Of a stretch of DNA of 30,814 nt, positions 1 to 30,765 are shown piece after piece. How positions within the stretch are numbered: position 1 is the stretch's first letter; every line of letters begins with the position of its first letter. Source of the stretch: a virus; the IMG/VR virus record IMGVR_UViG_3300027659_000137, positions 1 through 30,814 of that record; one strand, given 5' to 3'. Position numbers and translations under genes: made by a program. The notes below the pieces were generated by a model. That model did no database searches. It worked only from the letters and a program-made list of their open reading frames with translations, and was not told the DNA's origin.

Positions 1-1232
1 ATCATATTATGCAAGATTCTCCAACTGATTACTCTGTTCATAGAGAGCACAATGGTAAGACTAAACATATCGATACTTACGGATCGCTACATCGTGCCAA
101 GTCTGTATTGGACAATGAAGTTAAAGAGGAAACTGATCCTGCTAAAGAAAGAGTGAAAGCCCAGTTGGCTCTTAAACACGCTAAAGAAAAAGAAACTCTT
201 GCTACTAAACATACACAAGAGAAAGAAAACATCAATGAACTGTCAACTGATCTATTAGCAAGATATAAGACAGCTTCTGCTGCATCTGCTAAAGCAGCTG
301 ATGCATCTGGTAATTATAAAAAGGGAGACAAGCGTTTCTCTGGAATTAACAAAGCTACCAGTAAACAATTTGACAACGATCTAAAGAAACATGGCCAAAT
401 GAAAGAAGGCTATGGAGAAGATGATGTCTCTAGTCATGGCGGAACTGTTATCTACAAAAAGGGTAATCAACATCACCTTAGTAATGTAGCAAATAAAACT
501 GGCACTCATGTTAAGACTATGTCTGGGCATGAAGTTCCTTACAAACATATCGTATCTACAGATGCATCTGATTGGAAACACTTTAGAGATAAACCAAGTG
601 GTCTATCAGAAGAACATGTGATTGAAGAAACTGACATTTGTCCAGATTGTAAAGAAGATCCATGCGTGTGTGATGTTGGTGTAGATAAAACTTCTTACAA
701 TAAACCATTTGATCCATTCTTCAAAGAAGATTTTACTGAAGAAGAAATTGAAGAAATGATAAACTCTGTCACAGACGAAGACATCGAAGATCTCTACGAA
801 GAAGACGAACTTATTTTAGTTTATGATGACGATGGTGAAGAAATTCCACCACTAGAAGAAGAAGCCAAATATGATCTAATGGAAGTTCTTTCTCGTGTAG
901 AAAGAATGAAAGGTAAGATCCGTCTGCGTAAGACTTCTGCAAAACGAGGTCGTTCAACTAAGATTGCGTTGAAACGATTTTCAAACCCAGCAACTATTAA
1001 TAAACGAGCAAGAAGATTGGCGATTAAACTAATGAAGAAACGCATGCTTCGTGGTCGTGATTATGCTAAAGTTTCTGTTGGCGAAAAAGAACGAATTGAA
1101 AAAACAATGGCAAAGAGAAAAGATATTATTTCTCGTGTTGCTCAAAGATTAGTTTCTCGTGTTCGTACAGTAGAAAAAGCTAGAATGTCTCATGGTAAAG
1201 TTACTAAAGGGAGTACTCCAAGTGTATTTTAA
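1..1232 (+). CDS. Modular charged phage protein, probably virion-associated (5' end outside window)
   Basis: The first Met in the window is at 9, but the frame is open to the left edge and no ribosome site is visible, so the gene probably begins upstream. From the Met at 9: residues about 45-75 are a Lys/Glu helix; about 75-125 are a helical module beginning NELS that resembles a module in the gene at 2292; a Cys cluster (CPDCKEDPCVC, about 212-222) could bind metal; a very acidic stretch follows; the C-terminal 110 residues are strongly basic with many RR/KR pairs. This layout resembles internal-head or structural proteins of marine T4-like phages, but I do not recognise a named family. It is followed by an 11-nt overlap with the next gene if that gene starts at GTG 1222. 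Function is inference; the reading frame is certain. Confidence 0.75.
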   Translation, partial: HIMQDSPTDYSVHREHNGKTKHIDTYGSLHRAKSVLDNEVKEETDPAKERVKAQLALKHAKEKETLATKHTQEKENINELSTDLLARYKTASAASAKAADASGNYKKGDKRFSGINKATSKQFDNDLKKHGQMKEGYGEDDVSSHGGTVIYKKGNQHHLSNVANKTGTHVKTMSGHEVPYKHIVSTDASDWKHFRDKPSGLSEEHVIEETDICPDCKEDPCVCDVGVDKTSYNKPFDPFFKEDFTEEEIEEMINSVTDEDIEDLYEEDELILVYDDDGEEIPPLEEEAKYDLMEVLSRVERMKGKIRLRKTSAKRGRSTKIALKRFSNPATINKRARRLAIKLMKKRMLRGRDYAKVSVGEKERIEKTMAKRKDIISRVAQRLVSRVRTVEKARMSHGKVTKGSTPSVF

Positions 1233-1842
1233 ATCTTTTGCAGATCATTTATCTGAAACCTGTAACTGCTGGAAAGGTTACAAGCGCAAACCTGGAACTG
1301 CTCCATGCGCTGAAGGTTCCTGCATTAAAGAAGGTAAGCGTGGACTGTGGGATAACATCCATGCTAAACAAAAACGAATCAAAGCTGGTTCTGGTGAATC
1401 AATGCGCAAACCTGGAAGCGAAGGTGCTCCAACTAATGCAGCACTAAAGGCATCACAAACCGAAGAAGTTGAAGCCCAGTTTGATCTTATCGAAGAACTT
1501 GTTATGGATCTTGCTAGTCAACATAATATTGACCCAGAAGTTATTTGGGAAAAGTTTGAAGCAATCGATGACGAAGAACTGTATGAAGCTGCAGTTGATG
1601 CCAAAGGACATAAGTCTTCTACTGGTGGTCTGACTCAAAAGGGTCGTGATGCATACAATGCTAAAGGTGCTAATTTACAAGCACCAGTAACTACTCCACC
1701 ATCTAAATTAAAAGCTGGTAGTAAAGCAGCAAATCGTAGAAAGTCTTTCTGTGCTAGAATGGGTGGCATGGAAGGTCCAATGAAGAAACCAAATGGCGAG
1801 CCAAGTCGTAAGGCACTCGCACTTAGAAAGTGGAACTGTTAA
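1222..1842 (+). CDS. DUF6321-like small basic phage protein
   Basis: I place the start at GTG 1222, giving MYFKSFADHLSE; AAAGGGAG at 1206-1213 sits 8 nt upstream. The in-frame ATG at 1192 has no such site and would overlap the previous gene by 41 nt. The 206-residue product has three parts. An N-terminal Cys-containing segment includes CNCWKGYKRKPGTAPC and the stretch GLWDNIHAKQKRIKAGSGE. An acidic helix lies in the middle. A C-terminal block (SKAANRRKSFCARMGGM, then RKALALRKWNC) matches what I remember of DUF6321, a short basic domain scattered among phages and giant viruses. No enzymatic motif is visible. Its position between structural-type genes suggests a virion or DNA-packaging-associated role, but that is inference. 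The Dps-like gene starts directly after the stop. Confidence 0.8.
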   Translation: MYFKSFADHLSETCNCWKGYKRKPGTAPCAEGSCIKEGKRGLWDNIHAKQKRIKAGSGESMRKPGSEGAPTNAALKASQTEEVEAQFDLIEELVMDLASQHNIDPEVIWEKFEAIDDEELYEAAVDAKGHKSSTGGLTQKGRDAYNAKGANLQAPVTTPPSKLKAGSKAANRRKSFCARMGGMEGPMKKPNGEPSRKALALRKWNC

Positions 1843-2289
1843 ATGGACGATACTGTACAAGAAGCAAGAGTCTGCCTAAGCAATACATTTTTGATGTATT
1901 TTAAGGCACACTCCTATCACTGGAATGTGGAAGGTAAAGACTTCCCTCAACTACACGAATTCTTCGGCAATCTATACGAAGAACTATATGGTGCAGTCGA
2001 TACATTTGCAGAAGAAATCCGTGCTCTACAAGAGTATGCTCCAAGAAACCTAGACGAGATTTATGTTCATAAGTCGATCGATGCAGGTAATGTTGGACAC
2101 ACTCCAGAGACAATGCTGGCTGATTTACTTGCAGCGAACAACGAAAGCATTGTTCGCCTAAATAAGTTATTCGATCTACTATCTGTTGCAAAAGAGCAAG
2201 GTTTTGCTGATTTTGTAGCTTCTAGATTAGATGCACATAAGAAACACGGATGGATGCTAAGATCTATCTTAAAAACTACTGGGGAATAA
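1843..2289 (+). CDS. dps: Dps-like ferritin (DNA protection during starvation family)
   Basis: 148 residues, the usual size of the Dps core. The signature HWNVEGKDFPQLHEFF followed by DTFAEEIRAL is the Dps ferroxidase region. Aligned with E. coli Dps (H51, H63, D67, D78, E82), the counterparts are H26, H38, G42, D53 and E57, so one of five iron ligands appears to be replaced by glycine. Dps proteins form 12-subunit cages that oxidise Fe(II) with peroxide and often coat DNA; no long basic N-terminal tail for DNA binding is visible here. The ATG begins immediately after the upstream TAA, and the next gene starts 2 nt after this stop, so it is cotranscribed with head-type genes. A role in protecting phage DNA or removing iron/peroxide is inference. 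Family assignment is firm. Confidence 0.92.
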   Translation: MDDTVQEARVCLSNTFLMYFKAHSYHWNVEGKDFPQLHEFFGNLYEELYGAVDTFAEEIRALQEYAPRNLDEIYVHKSIDAGNVGHTPETMLADLLAANNESIVRLNKLFDLLSVAKEQGFADFVASRLDAHKKHGWMLRSILKTTGE

Positions 2290-2291
2290 GA

Positions 2292-4067
2292 ATGGAATAC
2301 AAATCATTTATGGAAGCGTTGAAGGGTAAACAGCATAAGATCGATAAGAATAAGAATGGTCAAATCGATGCCCATGATTTCAAACTTCTTCGTAAGGAAG
2401 AAACAGAAGAGTTAGAAGAAGCATCAGTCAAATCTGAGAAACATAGCTGGGGTAAGATGATGACTGTTCATCATGGAGCCAGTCATTCATATCCTTTACA
2501 TCCAGAACATCAAGAAGCAATTAGAAATTTAAAACATGGTGAACAAACTTCTTTTAAAGATGAGACTGGTGCTAAAGTAAATGTTCATCGTGATGTTCAA
2601 GATGTTCACTTCACTTCTAACAAGACATCTACCAAGACTACAGTTCCTCATAGTCATTTTAGCGAAGAAGTTGAAGACCTAGATGAAATTGCTCGTATGA
2701 AAACTAAACTTTCTTCTTTAGATGCAGTTAGTCATATGTCAGTTGCTCGTCAAAAATTAACTAACCTAATGAAGTCTGGTAAAGCCAGAGGTGCTTTGAT
2801 CGCTAATAAAAGAAGAACTCTAAACATGGGTGAAGAAGTCGAACAGATTGACGAACTGTCAAAGAGCACTCTTGGTTCTTACGCTAAGAAAGCATCCCGT
2901 GATGCTGTAATTACTCGTAAAATTGGCGCAGACTTTGAACGCAAGGCAGATGCAGCAAGAAGTCCAGGTATGCAAGCTGCCAACACCGAACTATCCAGCA
3001 AATATAAACAAAAATCTTGGAAGCGCAGAGATGGTCTTGAAAAAGCAGTTGATCGTTTAACCAAAGAAGAAGTTGAACAAATCGAAGAACGCAACAAAGA
3101 AAATGCTATGATGCGTAAAACTATGGATGCATCTCGTGGTGCTCGTTATAAATTAAACAATCCAGTACCTGATGCTGATCCAAAACATAAAACTGCTAGA
3201 GATCATAATGTAGCAATTGGTCGTGCCTTGCGTAATGAAGACAAAATGACCACACAAAAAGATAAAAATGGTAAACTAGTCTCTTTCAAATACGAAGGTG
3301 ATTGGAAGAAATCTACTGAGAAAAAAGAAGGTTCTGGTAAAGCAGCAAACCTTGCTGGACAAGCAATGCAGAAAATGGCAAAAGCCAATGAACAAGCACC
3401 TGTTGCTCCAGTTCCAGATCGTAAATATATCAAGGGTACTCCAGAAAACTTGGCATTAAAAGCATCACGCAAACCAATTAATGGTATGCCAACCAATAAA
3501 ATTAAAGAAGAAAAAGACGAAGAAGAGTATGGTTACGAAGGTGACATGGCTCTAAATCAATTGGCAACACTAACAAGATGTGCTGATATGATTAAAGAAA
3601 TTCTAAAGCCAGACACTGACATGCCAGAATGGGTTCAGTCTAAGATTACTCTTGCCACTGACTATATCCAAACTGCAGCTGACTACATGCACTCTGAAAT
3701 GAATGAAGACAAATCTGTTGATGTAGACAAAGTTAATGCAGCTGGTCACAAACCACACGAAGAAAAGTTTGAGACATTTAAAAAGTCAAAGAAAGTCAAA
3801 GAATCTTTCGATGACGAAGGTAATTTAATCTCTAACAAAGTTTCGTACAAAGAGTTTATGTTAGAGTACACTCCAGGTCCAGGTGGAGTTACTCAAGTTA
3901 AAGGTCGTTCTTATGGAGCAAGTTATGTTGACCCAGAAGGCGCAGATGATTATGATGATAAAAAACCAATGAAACCAGCAACTGAAAAGCGTGGTCGTGG
4001 TCGCCCAGCTGGAGCACAATCAGGTGCTCGTAAGAATTTGGGTAATTCTAAACTACATTCAAAATAA
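2292..4067 (+). CDS. Large modular EF-hand-containing phage protein, probable internal head or structural protein
   Basis: I choose ATG 2292 (MEYKSFMEALKGK); the longer frame from 2250 would overlap the dps 3' end by 40 nt. The N-terminus has a canonical EF-hand loop at residues 18-29 (D18, N20, N22, G23, D26, D29), as in several T4-like phage head-associated proteins. A small module with many His residues follows (about 47-124). Three near-identical acidic linkers then appear (EEVEDLDE at 125-132, EEVEQIDE at 181-188, EEVEQIEE at 259-266), each containing (L/I)-x-E, the T4 prohead-protease recognition pattern. The module after the second linker starts DELSKSTLGSY and resembles residues 75-125 of the first gene. 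The C-terminus is basic (KRGRGRPAG). The 591-residue length and repeats indicate a structural protein; the exact role is unknown. Confidence 0.8.
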   Translation: MEYKSFMEALKGKQHKIDKNKNGQIDAHDFKLLRKEETEELEEASVKSEKHSWGKMMTVHHGASHSYPLHPEHQEAIRNLKHGEQTSFKDETGAKVNVHRDVQDVHFTSNKTSTKTTVPHSHFSEEVEDLDEIARMKTKLSSLDAVSHMSVARQKLTNLMKSGKARGALIANKRRTLNMGEEVEQIDELSKSTLGSYAKKASRDAVITRKIGADFERKADAARSPGMQAANTELSSKYKQKSWKRRDGLEKAVDRLTKEEVEQIEERNKENAMMRKTMDASRGARYKLNNPVPDADPKHKTARDHNVAIGRALRNEDKMTTQKDKNGKLVSFKYEGDWKKSTEKKEGSGKAANLAGQAMQKMAKANEQAPVAPVPDRKYIKGTPENLALKASRKPINGMPTNKIKEEKDEEEYGYEGDMALNQLATLTRCADMIKEILKPDTDMPEWVQSKITLATDYIQTAADYMHSEMNEDKSVDVDKVNAAGHKPHEEKFETFKKSKKVKESFDDEGNLISNKVSYKEFMLEYTPGPGGVTQVKGRSYGASYVDPEGADDYDDKKPMKPATEKRGRGRPAGAQSGARKNLGNSKLHSK

Positions 4068-4096: not shown

Positions 4097-4861
4097 ATGG
4101 CACTATGGTCAAATATAGACGAAGCAGCAGGTAAACCAAAGTTTTTATCTGATGCTGAAAAAGCAATTACATTCGGTATGGATACTACCGAAATCACAGC
4201 AGGTGGCGACAATGTAACTTCAGTTGCAGTTGCTACTGGCGGTGCTCGTTACTTAGAAGCACCATCAGTTACCTTCTCTGGTGGCGCAGGATCTTCTGCT
4301 GCAGCTACTGCTACTATCTCTGGTGGCGCAGTCACTGCAGTAACTGTTACTAACACTGGCACTGCTTATACTTCAGCACCAACTGTTACGATCGCAATCC
4401 CAAGACGCACTATTCCTGCAGCATCAATTACTCTTGCTACTGATACTATCGCTTATACAGGGCATGGTCTAAATACTGGTGATATGGTTACATATTTCCA
4501 TGGTGGTGGCACTGCTGCAACTGGTCTAACAAATGGTGTAACTTACTTTGTTATCTCTTCTGGTTTAACTGCAGATGCATTTAAAGTTTCTGCCACTGAT
4601 GGTGGAACAACTGTTGACATTACTGGTCAAGGTACTAATGCTCAATACTTTCAACTTGCTACTGCAGTGGCAACTATCCAAGCAACTGCAGTTTCTGATC
4701 TAGGTTTTGGTGCTGGTGGTATTGCTGCTACTCACGCTGGTTGGGTAAAACGCATTGTTGGTACTGGCGGTCGTGCTGGTCGTATTACTACTGAAACAAT
4801 AGTTGCCATGGGTTCTATGGGTTCTGATGCTTCTGACGATACAGTCCTTCCAGACGCATAA
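4097..4861 (+). CDS. Beta-rich virion structural protein of marine T4-like phages
   Basis: A strong ribosome site, AAGGAGA at about 4083, precedes the ATG. The 254-residue product is rich in Gly, Ala, Thr and Val with almost no Cys. The N-terminus MALWSNIDEAAGKP and the C-terminus (GWVKRIVGTGGRAGRITTE, then SDDTVLPDA) match my memory of a conserved structural protein family in T4-like cyanophages. Between them are repeated beta-sandwich-like units with the pattern Y-x(3)-P-x-VT, seen at ARYLEAPSVTFSGG and TAYTSAPTVTIA. Such proteins are found in head or neck fractions, but this cannot be assigned to a specific virion site from sequence alone. A terminator follows at 4877, so it is the last gene of the left transcription unit. 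Confidence 0.8.
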   Translation: MALWSNIDEAAGKPKFLSDAEKAITFGMDTTEITAGGDNVTSVAVATGGARYLEAPSVTFSGGAGSSAAATATISGGAVTAVTVTNTGTAYTSAPTVTIAIPRRTIPAASITLATDTIAYTGHGLNTGDMVTYFHGGGTAATGLTNGVTYFVISSGLTADAFKVSATDGGTTVDITGQGTNAQYFQLATAVATIQATAVSDLGFGAGGIAATHAGWVKRIVGTGGRAGRITTETIVAMGSMGSDASDDTVLPDA

Positions 4862-11385: not shown

Positions 11386-12375
11386 ATGATTACAAAAACA
11401 AAATCAAGACTAACAGATCAAAGAACATACTTCAAACCATTCAACTATCCATGGGCATATGATGCTTGGTTGAAACACGAACAAGCACATTGGTTGCATT
11501 CAGAAGTACCAATGGCAGAAGATGTAAAAGATTGGAAAAAGAAACTAACTGCTGAGGAAAAACTATTCCTCACAAACATCTTTAGATTCTTCACTCAAGG
11601 AGACATTGATGTGGCTGGTGGATATGTTAATAATTATCTGCCATACTTTCCACAACCTGAAGTAAGAATGATGTTGATGGGTTTTGCAGCAAGAGAAGCA
11701 TTACATATTGCTGCTTACTCACATTTAATTGAAACTCTTGGTATGCCAGAATCTACATACAATGAGTTTCTTGAATATCAAGAGATGAGAGATAAACATG
11801 ACTATGTACTTGACCTTTCTAGTCGCAATGGTACTATCGCTAGTACTGCTGAGCATATTGCTGTTTTCAGTGCCTTTACTGAAGGTATGCAGTTGTTTAG
11901 TTCTTTTATCATGCTTCTTAATTTTCCACGCCACGGCATGATGAAAGGTATGGGGCAAATTGTTACATGGTCTATTGCTGATGAAACAATTCATGCGGAA
12001 TCAATGATTAAATTGTTCCGTGAGTATATCAAAGAAAATCCTGAGATCTGGAATGATGAACTAAAGGGTAAGATATACACAATCGCTGAGAAGATGGTAG
12101 AGTTAGAAGATAAGTTTATTGATCTTTGCTATCAAGGTGCAGACATGCGTGAGTTATCTGCAGCAGATGTTAAACAGTACATTCGTTACATTGCAGATCG
12201 TCGTCTAATCTCTCTTGGCATGAAAGGTATCTTTAAAGTTAAAAAGAATCCACTTCCATGGGTTGAAGAAATGATTAACGCACCAGTACATGGTAACTTC
12301 TTTGAGAATCGTGTTACTGATTATGCAAAGGGTGCATTGTCTGGCACATGGGGTGATGTTTGGGGGAAAGCATAA
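11386..12375 (+). CDS. nrdB: Class I ribonucleotide reductase small subunit
   Basis: 329 residues, ferritin-like fold. Metal ligands line up with E. coli NrdB: D73, E104, H107, E166, E200 and H203. The radical tyrosine is kept as Y111 (H107-I-A-A-Y111), so it looks like a tyrosyl-radical enzyme, not a Tyr-less variant. It generates and stores the radical used by NrdA. A 5-codon reading frame (ATG 11372 to TGA 11389) overlaps this start in ATGA and could couple translation, but this is weak. The 3' end runs 1 nt short of the next start. Confidence 0.95.
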   Translation: MITKTKSRLTDQRTYFKPFNYPWAYDAWLKHEQAHWLHSEVPMAEDVKDWKKKLTAEEKLFLTNIFRFFTQGDIDVAGGYVNNYLPYFPQPEVRMMLMGFAAREALHIAAYSHLIETLGMPESTYNEFLEYQEMRDKHDYVLDLSSRNGTIASTAEHIAVFSAFTEGMQLFSSFIMLLNFPRHGMMKGMGQIVTWSIADETIHAESMIKLFREYIKENPEIWNDELKGKIYTIAEKMVELEDKFIDLCYQGADMRELSAADVKQYIRYIADRRLISLGMKGIFKVKKNPLPWVEEMINAPVHGNFFENRVTDYAKGALSGTWGDVWGKA

Positions 12376-12376
12376 A

Positions 12377-13012
12377 ATGATTTCTGGGTGGTTTACTCCA
12401 AGTAATTTTGATATTCTACAAAACAGATTACCAAATGATTTATTTTTGCAATTGAAACAGGAATGTATCGAGGCTGAGAAAACTAGATACAACGATGGAT
12501 CCTTAGTAGAAATGGCATCAGGATTATCTGGTACAGGAACTGCTAAACATTATCTTATTAAAAATAATGAAAATTTAAAAAAATATGTTTTAGGTTTATC
12601 TGAGTTGTATATACAGCAGAATACTGATTTTGTCAAAAAACATAAAACCAACTGCCATAAAACACAATCTATTGCACTTGATCCATGGATAAATGTGCAA
12701 GAGCGAGGTGAATATATACCAAGTCATGATCATGATGGAGTTTTATCATATAGTATCTGGATGACTATACCGTATAATATTGAGGAAGAACTAACCAATT
12801 CAAAATTTGCATCAACATTCCAATTTTCATATCTTTCTATAGTTGGTGACCAATTACATCATACTATTGCAGTTGATAAAAGCATGGAAGGAACTCTTAT
12901 AATGTTCCCCGCAAATTTAAAACATTGTGTGTATCCATTTTATACAACAGAAAATCGTAGAATTTCTATTTCTGGAAATATAGCATTGGACGCATTAAAG
13001 GAAACCATTTAA
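12377..13012 (+). CDS. 2OG-Fe(II) oxygenase-like protein
   Basis: Start at ATG 12377 (MISGWFTPSNFDIL), preceded by the GGGGGAAAG of the nrdB end; the longer frame from 12290 lies inside nrdB. 211 residues. A double-stranded beta-helix signature is visible: HDHDG at 117-121 (candidate metal ligands H117, H119 or D120), EGTLIMFPANLKHCVYPFYT with H183, and NRRISISGNI with R194/R195 as possible 2-oxoglutarate binder. Similar proteins are frequent in T4-like cyanophages and annotated as putative 2OG-Fe(II) oxygenases. The substrate is unknown. A second, different oxygenase is at 28254. Confidence 0.75.
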   Translation: MISGWFTPSNFDILQNRLPNDLFLQLKQECIEAEKTRYNDGSLVEMASGLSGTGTAKHYLIKNNENLKKYVLGLSELYIQQNTDFVKKHKTNCHKTQSIALDPWINVQERGEYIPSHDHDGVLSYSIWMTIPYNIEEELTNSKFASTFQFSYLSIVGDQLHHTIAVDKSMEGTLIMFPANLKHCVYPFYTTENRRISISGNIALDALKETI

Positions 13013-27832: not shown

Positions 27833-28257
27833 AACAAAAATGGGTTGATGCTTTCATGGACACTGCGGAGAGATTCGCCCAGTTGTCCAGTGCAGTTAGA
27901 TTGCAGGTCGGTGCGGTTGTCGTGAAAGACAATCGCATCATCTCTATTGGATATAATGGAATGCCCTCTGGTTGGACAAACGAATGTGAGAACATCGTGC
28001 AACATTCAGATGACACAGTAACTACAGTAACGAAAGATGAGGTTATTCATGCTGAAGCAAACGCAATTATCAAATTGGCTCGTGATGGTGAATCAGGCAA
28101 TGGCTCCAGTTTATTCTGCACTCATGCTCCTTGTATTCATTGCGCTAAGTTGATACATGGAGCAGGTATAAATACAGTGTACTACCGAAACTCTTATCGT
28201 GATGAATTCGGAATAGATTTTTTAAACAAATGTAAAATTGAGGTGAATAAAGTATGA
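27829..28257 (+). CDS. cd: dCMP deaminase
   Basis: 142 residues. Zinc site HAE (H74, E76) and PCIHC (C102, C105) in the order expected for cytidine/deoxycytidylate deaminases; GYNGMPSGW (41-49) is the dCMP-type substrate motif. It converts dCMP to dUMP, feeding ThyX. Slightly shorter than T4 Cd (193 aa). ATGA overlap on both sides. Confidence 0.93.
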   Translation: MKQKWVDAFMDTAERFAQLSSAVRLQVGAVVVKDNRIISIGYNGMPSGWTNECENIVQHSDDTVTTVTKDEVIHAEANAIIKLARDGESGNGSSLFCTHAPCIHCAKLIHGAGINTVYYRNSYRDEFGIDFLNKCKIEVNKV

Positions 28258-28931
28258 GTGAAGAGCAACAAAAAGCAACTGGAGAAACTAATTACCTAGT
28301 TAATGCAGGTATAACTGCACTGTTTCCTACACCACTAATTACTGGAGAGTTGGAAGACACATCCATTTGTGATAAGTTAGAAAAACGAATCTTGGAAATG
28401 CGAGATAATAAACAAGGTAATTTTGAAGCAGGTAATTTTGTTACAAGCGATGACTTACACAGTCCAGAAATGGGAGAGCCTTTTATTGAATTTGGTAAGA
28501 TTGTTCTTGCTGAGACTCAAAACTTTTTAGATTTTCTCGGTGTTAAAAGAGATGCACACTACATCAGTGGTATGTGGGCAAATGTAACTAATCCAAATCA
28601 CAGACATCCAGTGCACCTGCACCCAAATAGTCTTGTGTCTGGTTTATTGTATGTTAAAACACCAGAGAAATGTGGTTCAACTGCATTTGTCGATCCCAGA
28701 CCAGCTGCAAGAGTTTTTGAACCATCGTATGATCGTATGTTTGAATACAATGCTGGATTGTTTAGATTCCCACCAAAGCGAGGCACATTGTTGATGTGGC
28801 CAAGCTGGATGTACCATGGTGTGGACAAAGGATTTACTGAAGACGAAACCGCAGATAGAATTAGCATAGCATTTAATGTTATGATTCTTGGAAAAATTGA
28901 TACACCTACAGCTAGATTGGAATTAAATTAA
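28254..28931 (+). CDS. 2OG-Fe(II) oxygenase (2OG-FeII_Oxy_5 type)
   Basis: 225 residues. HRHPVHLHPNSLVSGLLYVKTP holds candidate metal ligands (HxH), and MWPSWMYHGVDKG with ADRISIAFNVM holds the distal His and an Arg for 2-oxoglutarate. This matches the TIGR02466/2OG-FeII_Oxy_5 family found in many cyanophages. Substrate unknown. Coupled by TAATG to the peroxiredoxin gene. Confidence 0.85.
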   Translation: MSEEQQKATGETNYLVNAGITALFPTPLITGELEDTSICDKLEKRILEMRDNKQGNFEAGNFVTSDDLHSPEMGEPFIEFGKIVLAETQNFLDFLGVKRDAHYISGMWANVTNPNHRHPVHLHPNSLVSGLLYVKTPEKCGSTAFVDPRPAARVFEPSYDRMFEYNAGLFRFPPKRGTLLMWPSWMYHGVDKGFTEDETADRISIAFNVMILGKIDTPTARLELN

Positions 28932-29883: not shown

Positions 29884-29957
29884 TGGGGGTTAGTGTAGCG
29901 GTAACACTACAGACTTTGACTCTGTCATCACTGGTTCGATCCCAGTACCCTCTGCCA
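29884..29957 (+). tRNA. tRNA-Gln (TTG)
   Basis: 74 nt with encoded CCA. Anticodon stem ACAGA/TCTGT, loop CTTTGAC gives TTG. T-arm ACTGG-TTCGATC-CCAGT. The first acceptor pair is U1-U72, a mismatch; Gln tRNAs often have a weak U1-A72 pair here. Confidence 0.93.
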
Positions 29958-30029
29958 TAGATAAACACATTGAAGATAAGCAGGAACTTGTGTACACGAG
30001 GTCGCCTCGTTTAGTGTGTTTTTCTATGG
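29955..30029. repeat. Hairpin spacer 1 between tRNA-Gln and tRNA-Lys
   Basis: CCATAGATAAACACA (29955-29969) pairs with TGTGTTTTTCTATGG (30015-30029) at 14 of 15 positions, extendable to 20 positions (to 29974/30010) with two G-U pairs. The loop holds a second hairpin, CGAGG-TCG-CCTCG (29997-30009), and the palindrome GTGTACAC. The stem uses the CCA end of one tRNA and the first GG of the next. Confidence 0.8.
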
Positions 30030-30101
30030 GAGTATAACTTAATGGTAAAGTAGTAGGCTTTTAACCTATTAATCAGAGTTCAATTCTCTGTGCTCCTACC
30101 A
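30028..30101 (+). tRNA. tRNA-Lys (TTT)
   Basis: 74 nt with CCA. Anticodon stem GTAGG/CCTAT, loop CTTTTAA gives TTT. T-arm CAGAG-TTCAATT-CTCTG. Acceptor stem GGGAGTA/TGCTCCT has wobble pairs at both ends. Confidence 0.93.
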
Positions 30102-30169
30102 TATAAAAACACATTAGTTCCCCGCAGGGATAATTGACAACAGGTTCATGCTAGTGTGTTTCTATATGG
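30099..30169. repeat. Hairpin spacer 2 between tRNA-Lys and tRNA-His
   Basis: CCATATAAAAACACATTAG (30099-30117) pairs with CTAGTGTGTTTCTATATGG (30151-30169): 17 Watson-Crick pairs, one G-U, one mismatch. The arms are clearly related to spacer 1 (shared AAACACATT and AGTGTGTTT). The loop contains CCCCGCAGGG, itself able to fold. Confidence 0.8.
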
Positions 30170-30242
30170 TGTCGTTAGTTTAGTGGTAAAACTACGGGTT
30201 GTGATTCCGTCATCATGAGTTCAATTCTCATACGATACCCCA
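30168..30242 (+). tRNA. tRNA-His (GTG)
   Basis: 75 nt including the genomically encoded G-1 (30168) opposite C73, as in bacterial tRNA-His. Anticodon loop TTGTGAT gives GTG; CCA encoded. Confidence 0.93.
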
Positions 30243-30250
30243 ATTTTTAT

Positions 30251-30326
30251 GCCGATATAGCTCAGTTGGTAGAGCACTTGTTTGAAGCACAAGGTGTGGG
30301 TGGTTCGATCCCATCTATCGGCACCA
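30251..30326 (+). tRNA. tRNA-Phe (GAA)
   Basis: 76 nt with CCA. Acceptor GCCGATA/TATCGGC; anticodon stem CTTGT/ACAAG, loop TTGAAGC gives GAA. Position 37 is G where most bacterial tRNA-Phe have A, so identity is slightly less certain. Confidence 0.82.
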
Positions 30327-30331
30327 AATAT

Positions 30332-30406
30332 TCCCGATTAGCTCAGCGGTAGAGCACTCGCTTGATAAGCGATAGGTCAGTGATTCGAATTCACTATTGG
30401 GAACCA
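30332..30406 (+). tRNA. tRNA-Ile (GAT)
   Basis: 75 nt with CCA. Acceptor TCCCGAT/ATTGGGA; anticodon loop TTGATAA gives GAT; T-arm AGTGA-TTCGAAT-TCACT. Confidence 0.92.
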
Positions 30407-30413
30407 AAGTTAC

Positions 30414-30505
30414 GGAAGATAATGCAGCGGGGTTGGTCCTGCGACCAGCCTTGAAAACTGGGTTCTGAGAAATCGGATGGGGTTCGACTCCTCTGTCTTC
30501 CGCCA
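30414..30505 (+). tRNA. tRNA-Ser (TGA)
   Basis: 92 nt with CCA and a long variable arm, typical of Ser. Acceptor GGAAGAT/GTCTTCC; anticodon loop CTTGAAA gives TGA. Confidence 0.92.
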
Positions 30506-30513
30506 TATTATGT

Positions 30514-30588
30514 GCCTCGTTATTTCAGTGGTAGAATGTCTCTTTTACACGGAGAAGGTCGGCAGTTCGAATCTGTCACGAGGTACCA
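30514..30588 (+). tRNA. tRNA-Val (TAC)
   Basis: 75 nt with CCA. Acceptor GCCTCGT/ACGAGGT; anticodon stem TCTCT/GGAGA, loop TTTACAC gives TAC. Confidence 0.92.
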
Positions 30589-30594
30589 AGTTTT

Positions 30595-30669
30595 GCGTCT
30601 TTAGTAAAATGGATATTACAGTAGGCTACGAACCTACGAGTGGGAGTTCGATTCTCTCAGGACGCACCA
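30595..30669 (+). tRNA. tRNA-Arg (ACG)
   Basis: 75 nt with CCA. Acceptor GCGTCTT/AGGACGC; anticodon stem GTAGG/CCTAC, loop CTACGAA gives ACG. A34 would need inosine modification by the host TadA. Confidence 0.92.
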
Positions 30670-30675
30670 AGATTA

Positions 30676-30765
30676 GGAAGATGGGCAGGACGGTAATGCA
30701 GCAGTTTGCTAAACTGTAGATTCACGGAAGTGGGTCATAGGGTTCGATTCCCTAATCTTCCACCA
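30676..30765 (+). tRNA. tRNA-Ser (GCT)
   Basis: 90 nt with CCA and long variable arm. Acceptor GGAAGAT/ATCTTCC; anticodon loop TTGCTAA gives GCT. Same acceptor 5' strand as the other Ser tRNA. Confidence 0.92.

Follow-up and report, generated by a model that had tools for sequence, protein, structure and literature searches.

A phage Dps-family mini-ferritin with glycine at position 42 and its virus-only clade in late and packaging gene clusters

The dps gene and its surroundings

The stretch of DNA considered here, called the window throughout (IMG/VR record IMGVR_UViG_3300027659_000137, 30,814 nucleotides), carries a dps gene closely packed between other genes of the same strand. The features needed for what follows are listed in their order along the window.

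9..1232, + strand: gene for a charged protein, the second upstream neighbour of dps, cut by the window start; kept in related loci
1222..1842, + strand: upstream neighbour, with a C-terminal DUF6321 domain (PF19846); likely GTG start at 1222, the listed reading frame starting at 1192
1843..2289, + strand: dps, Dps-family mini-ferritin of 148 amino acids with ligand positions H26, H38, D53, and E57, and with Gly42
1966..1968, + strand: GGC codon of Gly42, corresponding to D in E. coli Dps and to E or M in most of the sampled bacterial relatives
2292..4067, + strand: downstream neighbour, beginning with MEYKSFMEALKGKQH... and containing an EF-hand-like stretch, DKNKNGQID; conserved in related loci
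4097..4861, + strand: putative virion protein, with weak, partial-length PHROG matches; conserved in related loci

The product of dps is a Dps-like protein, as a preliminary description of the sequence had proposed. Indeed, Pfam PF00210 (Ferritin) matches residues 12-145 (E=1e-20), PHROG 3636 (“DNA binding protein”) matches with E=2e-26, and the top match in a PDB search is 8ff9, the Pseudomonas aeruginosa Dps PA0962 (E=2.8e-20, residues 11-144), for which a profile search of the PDB gives E=6e-38. The AF2 model (pLDDT 95.3, pTM 0.90) has helices at residues 3-28, 34-61, 70-76, 88-115, and 119-146, that is, the Dps-typical layout of four long helices with a short one between the second and the third.

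The upstream neighbour ends at 1842, leaving no gap before dps, and the downstream gap is 2 nt if the next gene starts at ATG 2292. This is most likely its start, the listed one at 2250 overlapping dps, and with it the gaps of 0 and 2 nt reported earlier hold. Read from GTG 1222, the upstream neighbour begins with MYFKSFADHLSE..., which resembles the T4 capsid-targeting sequence, and its orthologues in three related loci (L007, L009, and L112) have the same kind of N-terminus. The protein encoded at 4097..4861 matches PHROGs of head-closure, baseplate, and virion structural proteins, weakly and over part of its length only. No major capsid, portal, or terminase gene was recognisable among the window proteins scanned. 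Downstream of dps, the window also encodes a class Ia ribonucleotide reductase (NrdA and NrdB), two 2OG-Fe(II) oxygenases of PHROG 81 (12290-13012 and 28254-28931), and a cluster of eight tRNAs (Gln, Lys, His, Phe, Ile, Val, Arg, and Ser; 29884-30765).

The iron site and position 42

In the window Dps, the family motif reads H26-x11-H38-x3-G42-x10-D53-x3-E57. H26, H38, D53, and E57 correspond to the inter-subunit ligands H51, H63, D78, and E82 of E. coli Dps, and glycine, rather than Asp or Glu, occupies the position of E. coli D67. The alignment therefore confirms what had been read from the sequence, namely G42 at the D67 position with the rest of the motif kept. In the Dps proteins of E. 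coli and Listeria, this position is acidic and counts among the described ligands. Both proteins (E. coli, 1f30; Listeria innocua, 1qgh) have the Dps fold in common with the window Dps and agree with it at four of the five classical ligand positions, but have Asp at the fifth.

From the glycine, it had been suggested that an iron ligand is replaced and full ferroxidase activity possibly lost. This reading is weakened by PA0962, whose site works with the four ligands kept here. In iron-soaked PA0962 crystals, two irons per site are held by H37, H49, D64, and E68 only, water completes the coordination sphere, and the protein oxidises Fe2+ using H2O2, not O2 (PMC10002758). The four residues align with H26, H38, D53, and E57 of the window Dps, and the counterpart of Gly42, by count on the alignment, is Glu53, which lies outside the ligand set. 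PA0962 (PDB 8ff9-8ffd) also has the Trp beside the first His and the columns of Tyr19 and Tyr45 in common with the window Dps; it differs in its non-ligand Glu in place of Gly42, in having Tyr27 where the window Dps has Phe16, and in coming from a stress gene of a bacterium and grouping with the bacterial sequences in the tree presented below. Since PA0962 uses just the four conserved ligands and the counterpart of Gly42 is not one of them, a retained H2O2-dependent ferroxidase would, by analogy, be the default expectation. Judging from its sequence, the window Dps most likely functions as a mini-ferritin that uses H2O2; given the acidic ligand of E. coli and Listeria Dps, its second iron site may bind iron more weakly.

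The same position was then followed in 131 distinct viral relatives from IMG/VR and in 79 distinct sequences from bacterial assemblies, the latter still including two phage contigs (L152 and L153); both samples are biased toward sequences matching the search patterns. H26, H38, D53, and E57 do not vary in either set. Position 42, on the other hand, is G in 106 viral sequences, Q in 8, A in 5, S in 4, E in 4, N in 3, and K in 1, so that it is non-acidic in 127/131, and in the bacterial-assembly set it is E in 39, M in 35, S in 2, G in 2, and D in 1. With viral and bacterial-assembly relatives varying in this way, position 42 is free to be non-acidic; as far as these alignments tell, this portion of the Dps family does not require an acid there. 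The Met-type proteins (motif HxxFMxQYTE, 35/79; bacterial-assembly set L154-L231) come from Caulobacter relatives, Betaproteobacteria, Bdellovibrio, and others. W27, beside the first His, is kept in 132/133 sequences; Tyr19 and Tyr45 are kept too.

A compensating acid for Gly42 was also sought. Apart from position 58, no new column-specific acid appears near the site in the viral clade. Position 58 is Arg in 76/77 bacterial sequences and Glu, Gln, His, or Asn in the viral clade; it adjoins the ligand E57 in sequence and is not considered a probable replacement ligand. E47 is common in ordinary Dps as well.

These data bear on the first interpretation offered for the gene, a ferroxidase-impaired Dps serving as a structural or DNA-condensing protein. 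The alignment proposed as a check upheld one part of it, the absence of an acid at position 42, which is also the state of nearly all the viral sequences. The other part, the loss of a working ligand, was not supported: the position is variable and the remaining four are invariant, which would be unexpected for a dispensable site, and PA0962 does not use the corresponding residue as a ligand. Moreover, an acid here is no universal feature of Dps, being absent from 39/79 bacterial-assembly relatives, about half of the set carrying Met, Ser, or Gly. DNA condensation, for its part, finds no support. The DNA-binding N-terminal tail of E. coli Dps is rich in Lys; the window Dps, beginning with MDDTVQEARVCLSN..., has no basic (Lys/Arg-rich) tail before helix A, and its subunit is acidic (pI 5.2, charge about -9.6 at pH 7.5). 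A basic N-terminal extension was sought in the viral clade and none was found; some 25 residues separate the start of the reading frames (for example, MEELVT...) from the HWN motif, and the net charges range from -3 to -15. We consider an impaired, structural or DNA-condensing Dps improbable.

A virus-only clade in late and packaging gene clusters

In a tree of 211 sequences, rooted at the midpoint only, a branch with an SH-aLRT support of 100 sets the viral Dps apart. Two sequences from metagenome-assembled genomes (MAGs), L152 and L153, fall inside the viral clade, one of them with Asp at position 42. The L152 contig has a major head protein gene upstream of dps, and the L153 contig a virion protein gene and DUF6321; because of these head or virion genes, both are taken as phage contigs. 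The L153 and L152 contigs had been binned into Bacteroidetes and Gammaproteobacteria MAGs. By parsimony, the inferred ancestral state at position 42 of the 132-sequence phage clade is Gly, from which at least 18 changes followed, and Gly42 of the window Dps is therefore not a lone oddity.

The genomic context is also conserved. Loci of the window type, with w denoting the genes around dps, keep the arrangement w1-w2-(extra gene)-dps-w4-w5-w6-w7 down to about 50% Dps identity. In a second T4-like lineage, dps lies between the terminase genes (L038, L039, L043, L048, L127, L136, and others). There, the PHROG order in L127 is head-tail adaptor, head closure, tail sheath stabiliser, TerS, DPS, TerL, sheath, tube, and portal, the block of this lineage also being given as adaptor-Hc2-sheath stabiliser-TerS-DPS-TerL-sheath-tube-portal. 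In this locus (L127:3828-6296) and in like loci, dps splits the genes of the small and large terminase subunits, which are normally adjacent. The statement that the window gene is packed between head-type genes was thus right in kind, the surroundings being a late or virion block in many related phages.

The T4 late promoter core, TAAATA, occurs at most 40 nt upstream of dps in 31/125 loci, vs. 2.5% of random windows. However, it also precedes 19% of the other long open reading frames of the same loci and, being nearly as frequent there, marks the region rather than dps itself. The window has no such site immediately before dps. The window dps is probably transcribed with late virion and packaging genes. 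In general terms, these sequences form a virus-only, tail-less, mostly Gly42 Dps clade located in late and packaging clusters; no paper treating phage Dps as an auxiliary gene came up in the literature searched.

Other phages encode Dps of a different type. The proteins of Privateer, LAh_8, and BUCT695 resemble the window Dps in being phage-encoded and, for those scanned, in belonging to PHROG 3636. Those of the Grimontviridae (Privateer, vB_CsaP_009, pSal-SNUABM-01, and BUCT695), however, have Asp at the D67 position and an Arg/Lys-rich N-terminal stretch. The Dps of Aeromonas phage LAh_8 likewise has Asp at this position, and in LAh_8 as in the Grimontviridae the gene lies in replication or nucleotide clusters, with genes for thioredoxin, thymidylate synthase, or ribonucleotide reductase nearby. 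Because the Grimontviridae proteins differ in N-terminus, D67 position, and gene context, there are at least two kinds of phage Dps. The Dps of Synechococcus phage S-SRM01 has Gly at position 42 and no basic tail, like the window Dps, but the two are only 27% identical and its gene lies between hypothetical genes near a porin gene, outside any structural cluster.

Possible virion association and proposed role of the phage Dps

The N-termini of the neighbouring proteins were compared with the T4 capsid-targeting sequence. In many loci, the upstream neighbours of dps have similar beginnings, for example MYFKSFADHLSE, MLSFKEFISE, MKTFMTFLEE, or MLLRELFE. With a loose N-terminal pattern ending in [LI]xE, the frequency is 0.32-0.54 at gene positions -1 to -5 from dps, 0.08-0.17 at positions +4 to +8, and 0.04-0.12 in inner windows of the neighbouring proteins (-4 to +4). 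In the terminase lineage, part of the signal at -1 is the N-terminus of the small terminase, MKKLNEKLSE, which is not known to be a targeting sequence. The window Dps has no such N-terminus, and Dps itself shows one in 13/128 loci (0.10), which is the background level. The window proteins at 1222-1842 and 2292-4067 and the upstream genes in L001-L151 look unrelated to one another and have short N-termini in common ([FY]xxF[LI]xE) that are like the T4 targeting sequence. These shared N-termini suggest that aquatic T4-like phages may have a large cargo set of internal head proteins.

In T4, the internal proteins carry a capsid-targeting sequence, which is removed by the prohead protease (PMC9026906, PMC3012670). 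The T4 internal head proteins (IPI-III and Alt) resemble the neighbours of dps in their N-termini and differ in this respect from Dps. From these sequence patterns, the window-type dps block is probably a block of internal head proteins, but Dps has no targeting sequence.

The Dps could be associated with the virion, forming a cage in or on the head together with internal-type proteins and shielding packaged or injected DNA from Fenton damage. The frequency of targeting-like N-termini in the upstream neighbours (about 0.3-0.5 vs. about 0.05-0.17 elsewhere) and, in several lineages, the placement of dps next to genes for the head or the terminase are in favour of this. So are two phage preparations: mass spectrometry of purified virions of the Proteus phage Privateer revealed its Dps (PMC7881722), and SU10 Dps was detected in a concentrated phage preparation (6 peptides, 35.8% coverage; PMC4281155). 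However, Privateer Dps is of the other type, with its Asp, basic N-terminal tail, and replication cluster; SU10 Dps differs as well, being a middle gene product, and the SU10 preparation also contained early proteins (PMC4281155). The background-level frequency of the head-targeting pattern in Dps itself also argues against packaging. Virion association, which is compatible both with an active ferroxidase and with a role in the cytosol late in infection, is ranked second, as a possibility we consider rather unlikely; the cytosolic late-infection role is ranked first and regarded as probable.

Another proposal takes the enzymes of the window into account. Dps would act as an iron buffer, supplying iron to, or withholding it from, the class Ia ribonucleotide reductase and the two downstream 2OG-Fe(II) oxygenases. 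The presence of NrdA, NrdB, and both oxygenases in the same window fits this proposal, as does the location of other phage dps genes near ribonucleotide reductase genes. Nevertheless, the terminase-flanked lineage has dps without such neighbours, and Dps is not known from many T4-like phages that encode these enzymes, which makes an iron buffer unlikely.

Our preferred interpretation is that the window encodes a genuine phage Dps, and we think it reasonably probable that this is an active mini-ferritin guarding phage DNA late in infection. Twelve subunits would form the cage, with iron sites at each dimer interface to which one subunit contributes H26 and H38 and its partner D53 and E57. Fe2+ would be oxidised with H2O2 at these sites and then stored, Gly42 replacing a residue that is no ligand in PA0962, the closest solved relative. 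Late in infection, free Fe2+ and H2O2 would in this way be kept from damaging phage DNA awaiting packaging. In a bolder version, which we regard as quite unlikely, the virus-only clade would have turned into an antioxidant cage associated with the head of T4-like phages, produced along with the terminase and the internal head proteins, iron-loaded, carried in the virion, and codelivered with the DNA, its ferroxidase site, reshaped around Gly42, handling peroxide unlike that of cellular Dps.

A single odd residue thereby becomes a testable statement on a whole virus-only family, one without the fifth acidic position or a basic tail and located in late virion and packaging operons. Should these proteins be produced late or enter the particle, the chemistry of iron and peroxide would belong to phage assembly or to survival outside the cell. 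If true, this would also bear on where the iron associated with phage particles sits.
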